From NCBI RefSeq assembly GCF_003722315.1, contig NZ_CP033580.1, positions 495,001 to 559,000 of the forward strand: a stretch of 64,000 bases of DNA. The letters are read 5' to 3'. Position numbers and translations under genes: made by a program. This DNA is from Thermoanaerobacter ethanolicus JW 200 (lineage in GTDB: Bacteria > Bacillota > Thermoanaerobacteria > Thermoanaerobacterales > Thermoanaerobacteraceae). This document shows, piece after piece, positions 48,266-64,000 of the stretch (position 1 is its first letter; every line of letters starts with the position of its first letter). The notes beneath the pieces were generated by a model. The model saw nothing but the letters and a program-made list of their open reading frames with translations. It was not told the origin of the DNA and ran no database searches.

Positions 48266-48334
48266 ATTCTATTAATAATGATTATATATTATAATATAAA
48301 TGTCAACAAAAAAATACCAATGGGAGGTATAGAG

Positions 48335-49390
48335 TTGCTTACAAAAGAACAAGTATTAAACGCTCTAAGAAAGGTTTATGACCCAGAAATAGGAAGAAGT
48401 ATAGTTGACCTTGATATGGTGAGAAATATTCAAATAGAAGGGGATAAAGTTACAATTGACATAAACCTTACTGTGAAAGGTTGCCCTCTTCAAGATACTA
48501 TTAAAAAAGATGCTATCGAAGAAGTATCCAAACTTGAAGGAGTTTCAGAAGTAATAGTAAATTTAGGTAGCATGACAGAAGAAGAAAGACAAAATTTAGC
48601 AAGAAAGCTTAGCGGTGGCAGAAAACCTATATTTGAAAATACGAGAGTAATAGTAGTAGGTAGTGGAAAAGGTGGAGTAGGTAAATCAACTGTTGCAGCT
48701 AATTTAGCTGTAGCTCTTGCCAGATTAGGCTTTAAAGTAGGGCTTTTGGATGCGGATGTGTTGGGATTTAGTGTTCCAAGGCTTTTGGGGATTGTGGATG
48801 AAAGACCTTATGCATTGGATGAGCATACTATTTTGCCATTAGAAAGATTCGGAATAAAAGTGATTTCGATGGGTAATTTTACTGACGAAGATACACCTTT
48901 GATATGGAGAGGTCCACTTTTGTCAGGAGTTCTTGATCAGTTTTTCAATGATGTATATTGGGGAGAATTAGATTATTTAGTATTGGATTTACCACCAGGA
49001 ACAGGAGATATACCTCTTACAGTGATGCAAAAATTGCCCGAGTCAAAATTTGTGCTTGTGACAACTCCACAAGCTTCAGCATCTCACGTAGCGGGAAGAA
49101 TTGGCTATATGGCTAAAAAAGTTAATTTAGAAGTTATAGGTATTGTGGAAAACATGTCATATTTTGAATGTCCTAACTGCCACCAAAGATATAATATTTT
49201 TGGTGAAGGGGAAACAGAAAAATTAGCGCAAGATTTAGGAACAGAAATACTTGTAAAGATTCCAATAACGGTTAAAGTCAGAGAATTAAGCGATGTAGGT
49301 ATACCACCTGCTCTTGATGATGGACCTGAGGGACTTCCTTATATTGAGCTGGCGGAAAAGGTTGTGGAGAAAGTAAGGCCTATCAAATAA
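48335..49390 (+). CDS. mrp: Mrp/ApbC-type iron-sulfur cluster carrier ATPase with DUF59 domain
   Basis: The 351-residue protein starts with a DUF59/MIP18 domain (YDPEIGRSIVDLDMV, VKGCPL). A deviant Walker A GSGKGGVGKSTVAAN follows near residue 113, then DADVLGFSVPR and the CPNC motif that binds the bridging cluster. It delivers [4Fe-4S] clusters. The TTG at 48335 follows GGGAGGT; a more upstream ATG would add an unlikely tail overlapping the sigI promoter. Confidence 0.9.
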   Translation: MLTKEQVLNALRKVYDPEIGRSIVDLDMVRNIQIEGDKVTIDINLTVKGCPLQDTIKKDAIEEVSKLEGVSEVIVNLGSMTEEERQNLARKLSGGRKPIFENTRVIVVGSGKGGVGKSTVAANLAVALARLGFKVGLLDADVLGFSVPRLLGIVDERPYALDEHTILPLERFGIKVISMGNFTDEDTPLIWRGPLLSGVLDQFFNDVYWGELDYLVLDLPPGTGDIPLTVMQKLPESKFVLVTTPQASASHVAGRIGYMAKKVNLEVIGIVENMSYFECPNCHQRYNIFGEGETEKLAQDLGTEILVKIPITVKVRELSDVGIPPALDDGPEGLPYIELAEKVVEKVRPIK

Positions 49391-49393
49391 AAA

Positions 49394-49687
49394 AAGCCTC
49401 TTTGTAAAGCTTCAGTTTACTGACAAAGTTAAAAATATTCAAAGGAGATATTTTGCATCGTAGCTCCGATGTTACAAAGCGACAAAACTAAAGCTCGACC
49501 TTCGGGCTCCGGCAGGGTACCGGCCACATTCGACCTCCTTGTCTTAATGCCCGCCTCTGCCATCCTTGGCTTCGGCCCTGCCTCCACCCTCAGTCTTGCT
49601 AACTTTTGTTAGCGCTTTGTAACAAGTCACACCGATTGCAAAATATCTCCTTGATGAAAGTTTGTCTACAGTCTGAAGCCTCTTTGT
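49394..49687. repeat. 12-bp direct repeats around the MITE-like element, in the mrp terminator
   Basis: AAGCCTCTTTGT occurs at 49394-49405 and 49676-49687. Removing one copy and the insert restores AAAAAGCCTC-TTTGT-GAGGGTTTTTT, a plausible mrp terminator, so the insert sits in a terminator loop. Confidence 0.8.
49406..49675. mobile_element. MITE-like element related to the IS1182-type element at 63.7 kb
   Basis: The 270-bp insert has no coding capacity. Its right end, read on the minus strand, starts CAGACTGTAGACAAA, almost the same as the IS left end at 63691 (CAGACTGTTGACAAA). Further inside, AAGGAGATATTTTGCA (49443-49458) faces its exact complement at 49637-49652, and GTTACAAAGC faces GCTTTGTAAC. 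The centre (about 49490-49590) is much richer in G and C than the genome and folds into several short stems. It is read as a non-autonomous relative mobilised by the IS1182 transposase. Confidence 0.75.
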
Positions 49688-49696
49688 GAGGGTTTT

Positions 49697-50053
49697 TTAT
49701 TTTGCAAGTTCGTCTTCAGGAATTGTATCGGTTAAATTTTCAACATATTTTGAGAGGTTTTGTATAACTTTTTCATAAGGCAAACTTTTCTCAAGACGTA
49801 TAAATTTTAGCCCTTTTTGCTTTGCCTTTCCATAAGAAAGACTGCAAAAAGCTTCAGGCACAGTTATTATTACATCGGTTTTTTGGTCAAGGAGAAAATC
49901 TACAATAGCACTTCTTCTCCCTTCTTTTAGAAAGTATCCTGGATTATCGTACTTTTCACTATTTTCTTTTTGTGTATCAAAAATAATTATATATGGCCCG
50001 TCGGGAAGTTTTTCAATATAGCCCTTCTCTGTTATTGTAGCAGCTATTCTCAT
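49697..50053 (-). CDS. NifX/NifB-C-like (dinitrogenase cofactor-domain) protein
   Basis: The 118-residue protein has the ribonuclease-H-like fold of the NifX family, with MRIAATITEKGYIEK at the start and a central AIVDFLLDQKTDVIITV strand. Such proteins bind iron-sulfur or cofactor precursors, and many are found in genomes without nitrogenase. Neighbouring mrp encodes a cluster carrier, so an iron-sulfur role is possible. It converges with mrp. Confidence 0.7.
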   Translation of the reverse strand: MRIAATITEKGYIEKLPDGPYIIIFDTQKENSEKYDNPGYFLKEGRRSAIVDFLLDQKTDVIITVPEAFCSLSYGKAKQKGLKFIRLEKSLPYEKVIQNLSKYVENLTDTIPEDELAK

Positions 50054-63670: not shown

Positions 63671-63690
63671 AAAGGTACGTTTGTACCTTT
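63669..63690 (+). terminator. Hairpin after the Spo0F-like gene, bordered by an IS
   Basis: AAAGGTACG-TT-TGTACCTTT pairs around a small loop. The IS begins right after TTT, so the original T-tract may have been cut. Confidence 0.55.
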
Positions 63691-63710
63691 CAGACTGTTG
63701 ACAAAATATC

Positions 63711-63748
63711 GGGAACCCGTTATTATGAGAAGGGTTCCTTGTTTTTTT
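63711..63748 (+). terminator. Terminator inside the IS left end
   Basis: GGGAACCC pairs with GGGTTCC, and TTGTTTTTTT follows. It would shield the transposase gene from outside transcription. Confidence 0.8.
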
Positions 63749-63777
63749 ATGAAGCAAAAGAGGAGAGGAGAAGAAAG

Positions 63778-64000
63778 ATGTTATCAAAGAAACAGGATGC
63801 CAGACATCAAATAGAATTTGTAAGCATAGATCAGTTAGTTCCAAAAGATCACCTTTTAAGGAAGATAGAAAGAGTTATAGATTTTAGTTTCATATATGAT
63901 TTAGTAAAAGACAAATATTCCGAAGATCACGGCAGACCAAGCATAGATCCAGTAGTATTAATAAAAATCCTGTTTATTCAGTATCTTTTTGGCATACCCT
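63778..64000 (+). CDS. IS1182-family transposase, N-terminal part
   Basis: The visible 74 residues (MLSKKQDARHQIEFVSIDQL, then VPKDHLLRKIE) and HGRPSIDPVVLIKILFIQYLFGI give the N-terminal DUF772 domain of IS1182-type transposases. The catalytic core is beyond the window. GAGGAGAGGAG precedes the ATG. Confidence 0.88.
   Translation, partial: MLSKKQDARHQIEFVSIDQLVPKDHLLRKIERVIDFSFIYDLVKDKYSEDHGRPSIDPVVLIKILFIQYLFGIP

Follow-up and report, generated by a model that had tools for sequence, protein, structure and literature searches.

A MITE of Thermoanaerobacter, probably moved by an IS1182-type transposase, that duplicates whole terminator hairpins as its target sites

Downstream of an mrp-type ATPase gene, Thermoanaerobacter ethanolicus JW 200 carries a GC-rich, palindromic MITE. 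Comparison of its copies and their insertion sites leads us to conclude, with high confidence, that this element, probably moved by an IS1182-type transposase that targets terminator hairpins by their structure, duplicates the whole hairpin as its target-site duplication (TSD). The element lies in the 64,000-nucleotide stretch analysed here (the window; positions 495,001 to 559,000 of contig NZ_CP033580.1), which also contains the left part of an insertion sequence (IS) with matching ends.

A preliminary description of the window had placed an insert of about 270 bp at 49394–49687. The insert is real, and the element proper is confined to 263 bp within it. The relevant features are:

48278–49390, forward strand: mrp-type P-loop ATPase gene (ORF), whose terminator is the insertion target
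49394–49412, no strand: left TSD copy, duplicated mrp terminator hairpin, decayed (−1.0 kcal/mol)
49413–49675, forward strand: MITE, 263 bp, non-coding, with terminal repeats CAGTTTACTGACAAA ... TTTGTCTACAGTCTG, delimited by alignment with about 36 own-genome copies
49442–49457, no strand: left arm of the outer palindrome, 16 bp, pairing with 49637–49652 (100% complementary)
49470–49481, no strand: left arm of the inner palindrome, 12 bp, pairing with 49613–49624 (100% complementary)
49485–49625, no strand: GC-rich folded core, with homologous cores between other ends in further Bacillota families
49613–49624, no strand: right arm of the inner palindrome, pairing with 49470–49481
49637–49652, no strand: right arm of the outer palindrome, pairing with 49442–49457
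49676–49694, no strand: right TSD copy, duplicated mrp terminator hairpin, followed by a T-tract (−7.8 kcal/mol)
49697–50053, reverse strand: convergent gene (ORF) sharing a bidirectional terminator with mrp
63671–63690, no strand: left TSD copy of the IS, a 20-bp hairpin, AAAGGTACGTTTGTACCTTT; the identical right copy lies beyond the window
63691–64000, forward strand: left part of the IS1182-type IS, 1560 bp in all and running to about window position 65250, with the transposase from 63781

The MITE-like, mobile character proposed in the preliminary description has stood: the element is short and non-coding, with dispersed copies and flanking duplications, and the ORF list of the window contains no frame of 60 or more residues within 49413–49675. 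The two conditions given there as speaking against mobility, a single copy in all genomes and flanks without duplications, do not hold. The nested inverted repeats and the GC-rich centre that it noted were likewise confirmed, the latter with a GC content of 63% at 49500–49589 against about 30–40% in most neighbouring intervals. The insert folds with z = −7.3 on the forward and −8.6 on the reverse strand, and none of 100 shuffles was equally stable. The reported 12-bp direct repeat also exists, since AAGCCTCTTTGT is present at both 49394 and 49676; it forms the perfectly matching portion of a 19-bp repeat (3 mismatches overall), a remnant of the target duplication, and is target DNA outside the element proper rather than a repeat of the element's own.

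The two hairpins that flank the window copy have decayed since insertion, to −1.0 kcal/mol on the left and −7.8 kcal/mol on the right, compared with −18.5 kcal/mol for the empty mrp site, and a terminator scanner run on the window consequently reported no site. With its hairpins degraded, each side resembles a fragment, as would be expected if the mrp terminator had been split, as first described, without duplication and the flanking repeats were its two halves. We give this reading almost no credence: well-preserved copies carry a complete hairpin on each flank, exactly one hairpin is found in empty sites, and the empty sites refute it. The entire mrp hairpin has instead been duplicated, as a 19-bp TSD.

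A sequence search of the host genome (one contig, 2.91 Mb) locates the MITE at about 36 dispersed places, and many copies are present in each of eight congeners. Clear TSDs flank 25 of the 29 own-genome copies with both ends, while the other four, through decay or rearrangement, have no clear TSD. One MITE subfamily (L020–L026; e.g. G000:C1:1352486-1352555) carries a 70-bp palindromic insert, CCCGGCACTCAAGTAAG...CTTACTTGAGTGCCGGG, which occurs in both orientations at 10 genome places, almost all within MITE copies.

The relation between TSD and hairpin was assessed in 66 distinct insertions with a clear TSD, drawn from the host genome and its congeners, including a few from G006; the unoccupied site was rebuilt for each insertion, and the best hairpin was sought in about 100 bp. 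The TSD, which ranges from 17 to 40 bp, coincides with the best hairpin of the site in 63 of the 66 insertions, mostly on its centre, and its left and right offsets relative to the hairpin are mirror images. The mean hairpin score is 21 for TSDs against 8 for random windows of equal length, none of which reaches the median TSD score. In our own scoring, TSD length correlates moderately with hairpin length (r = 0.53), the correlation being limited by A/T tracts that lengthen many hairpins. Because the TSD follows the hairpin, the target appears to be read as a structure.

Many copies in G006 (L091, L093, L095–L097, L099 and L100) have one identical flank in common and carry an additional CG ahead of the left end, and several copies in this assembly have different hairpins on their two sides. 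These flanks probably reflect repeat collapse or misassembly; they were taken to be assembly collapse, and no weight was placed on them.

The rebuilt sites have a T-rich right flank in 45 and an A-rich left flank in 47 of the 66 insertions, compared with about 10% at random positions. Gene context is convergent for 22 insertions and tandem for 40, and none lies between divergent genes; stop codons are only a few bases from the TSDs. Taken together, the hairpin TSDs, the T- and A-rich flanks and the convergent or tandem context near stop codons identify the targets as intrinsic terminators. As all copies occupy tolerated places near gene ends, the restriction to hairpins might reflect selection and not targeting, insertions anywhere else being lethal or purged. 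This is very unlikely, however, as the TSD has the hairpin dyad at its centre and matches the hairpin in extent, and positional selection cannot set TSD boundaries.

For at least 11 insertions, an orthologous site without the element was found, with a single hairpin, in the same species (G061) and in other congeners. Several of these empty sites are within the same species, where the copies are polymorphic. In G001 and G008 the mrp site is unoccupied, with one hairpin, AAGCCTCTTTGTGAGGCTTTTTT, and a single AAGCCTCTTTGTGAGGCTT. Elsewhere it is occupied: G061 and G005 have a different MITE subfamily there, oppositely oriented, G002 a same-orientation copy and G004 another MITE subfamily. Filled by sequence-distinct subfamilies in both orientations and empty in two congeners, the mrp terminator is therefore a recurrent target. 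In-place inversion was considered for the opposite orientations at this site and rejected, the copies being different MITE subfamilies.

Other elements are found at the same hairpins. In L126, L147, L113 and L148, the MITE has another IS or MITE end beside it at one duplicated hairpin, suggesting that regenerated targets are hit repeatedly. The 5′ ends of group II introns, GTGCGCCCGGCATGGGCGATA, directly follow the same terminator hairpins in several loci (L206, 215–330, in G061; L004, L010 and L047), and in L206 the intron lies inside a MITE end, 7 bp past the hairpin.

In the mechanism we propose, the transposase would select intrinsic-terminator hairpins by their palindromic structure and insert the element at the hairpin base, its 3′ ends being joined to the 5′ feet of a cruciform. 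The entire hairpin would be duplicated, the TSD being the hairpin itself, with a length set by the hairpin and not by a fixed stagger. Joining of 3′ ends at cruciform 5′ feet fits TSDs that span the hairpin from foot to foot at any length. The right copy keeps the T-tract and the left copy the A-tract, and therefore termination is likely to be mostly preserved in either direction, with regeneration of the target. The earlier suggestion of a portable terminator holds in this sense only: every insertion leaves the target with two copies of its own terminator hairpin.

Given that IS1272 belongs to the same IS1182 family and likewise targets hairpins and terminators (PMC5678879, PMC4923244), a replacement of the IS1272/TnSha1 kind might be envisaged, in which the element takes out the target stem-loop and forms a new hairpin from its own ends. 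Yet there is no deletion at any well-preserved site: the hairpin is intact and doubled, and empty sites hold a single one. Replacement with loss of the stem-loop and no TSD is thereby ruled out here, and we regard it as extremely improbable. Whole-hairpin duplication has a precedent on paper, as Wan et al. drew cruciform 5′-foot joining as a possible pathway (b) and proposed hairpin replacement for IS1272 (PMC5678879). In the open literature surveyed, where whole-hairpin duplication appears as a hypothetical pathway only, no report of whole-terminator duplication by the IS1182 group was found; ISfinder entries or a subscription review may hold such notes.

The candidate driver of the MITE is the IS at 63.7 kb, whose transposase scores 492 bits against NCBIfam NF033551 (IS1182 family; cut-off 270). 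The preliminary description had matched one MITE end to this IS, and the match extends to both: the right end of the window MITE, CAGACTGTAGACAAA, is identical to the IS left end, CAGACTGTTGACAAA, in 14 of 15 positions, and the family left end in the MITE consensus, CAGTTTGTTGACAAAG, equals the IS right end. All eight full-length IS copies in the genome (1560–1566 bp, with ends CAGACTGTTGACAAA and TTTGTCAACAAACTG) have perfect hairpin TSDs of 20–32 bp, so that MITE and IS have the same type of TSD. With the same ends and perfect hairpin TSDs, the IS copies are likely drivers, and the MITE is probably moved in trans by the IS1182-type DDE transposase.

Simple deletion within the IS does not account for the MITE, nor is such an origin required for a MITE. 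Searches with the transposase and with the MITE give separate loci besides the end matches, and the MITE core matches elements with other ends, not the interior of the partner IS. In G005, which has many MITEs, no transposase match was found at E 1e-60; the copies there may no longer be mobile or may depend on some other transposase.

The palindromic core is conserved as a fold. Among 20 divergent MITE copies, 20 of 56 pairs show double changes that keep pairing, compared with 8 in shuffles and 2–6 in slid controls, and the helix of the outer arms has compensatory changes at 8 of 15 pairs. In a wider core family of 14 sequences, double changes affect 31 of 45 pairs, and 94% of cells pair. Small RNAs had been mentioned as a possible role in the preliminary description, and covariation this strong could indicate that the element acts mainly as a small RNA or a transcribed regulatory hairpin under selection, with mobility secondary; its copies stand at gene 3′ ends and would be transcribed by read-through from the gene upstream. 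Against this, G-U pairs are few, and the variable cells show a balance of G-U and A-C (17:26 and 11:9), which gives no sign of a transcribed strand and points to a DNA palindrome with co-changing arms. The window element has no Rfam match up to E 5, and its many interchangeable copies are polymorphic within the species. A primary RNA role therefore appears improbable, although less so than the other alternatives considered here, and the sequence patterns suggest that the core is maintained as a DNA-level structure, which may assist in folding, replication or recognition of the element.

Cores homologous to this one but bearing different ends are present in the sister genus (L068–L072 and L074) and in several further Bacillota families (L354–L372). 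For example, TATCCCCAGTTTT...AAAACTGGGGATA-like flanks surround the core in G218, G281 and G304. In the sister genus, L070 and L072 represent one orthologous locus in different species with the core (about 1467–1675) in opposite orientations; here the core is 97% conserved and the flanks 90–92%.

Hairpin duplication extends to related IS1182-type elements of other families of the phylum. The rule is followed by 10 of 11 IS copies in G073, by IS copies of the close type in G056 and by single copies in G040 and G104. Across named Bacillota genomes, the TSD is a hairpin of 18–42 bp at 50 of 79 related IS loci, in hosts including Bacillus, Neobacillus, Sporosarcina, Enterococcus, Exiguobacterium and Lachnospiraceae; for most of the remaining 29 the termini could not be delimited, and at a few the two sides carry different hairpins. 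The sampled hairpin duplicators form one clade (97/92) in a tree of 41 transposases; sampling focused on this clade, and the outer part of the tree, with its long branches, is unsure. Family members checked outside it have TSDs of 4–9 bp, or none were found. IS copies flanked by two different hairpins (L299, L324, L330 and L254) are probably products of recombination between copies. We lean towards the broader view that a phylum-wide IS1182-type clade recognises hairpins in DNA as structures and duplicates each in full and that, separately, the GC-rich core is a modular cargo of elements with unrelated ends in several Bacillota families, kept by paired changes in its two arms and apparently as a DNA structure.

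Targeting of this kind would represent a safe-landing strategy, as each insertion restores the stop signal and regenerates the target. Classical DDE transposons generate a TSD of fixed length from the spacing of two strand transfers, and IS-finding methods that assume a fixed TSD could miss hairpin-duplicating elements. The element ends could also serve for terminator-directed insertion tools.

Group IIC introns insert beside intrinsic-terminator hairpins. They share this neighbourhood with the MITE, one of them (G061, L206) lying in the end of a MITE, at the same duplicated hairpin, but move by RNA-mediated retrohoming and leave no TSD. Other bacterial MITEs, such as MITEAba12 (PMC6382973), are similarly short, non-coding and present in many copies, with IS-like inverted-repeat ends and TSDs; the present MITE differs in its variable, structure-defined TSD of 17–40 bp and in an interior that is unrelated to the partner IS and common to elements with other ends. 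The partner transposase conforms to the IS1182 family in its score above the family cut-off and in the 1.56-kb length of its element. Some members of that family have palindromic targets, according to Siguier et al. 2015 as cited in PMC4923244 and PMC5678879, but the family is mixed, and the clade described here duplicates the whole hairpin. The staphylococcal IS1272/TnSha1 elements also recognise stem-loops, often terminators, without a sequence consensus, and TnSha1/IS1272 deletes hairpins without target duplication, including at RNA-seq-confirmed terminators (Furi et al., PMC4923244). Their stem-loop is thus deleted or replaced with no TSD (PMC5678879, PMC4923244), whereas here it is doubled. 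With a hairpin-deleting IS1272 in the same family, the proposed mechanistic fork, joining at the 5′ versus the 3′ feet of a cruciform, is testable across relatives.
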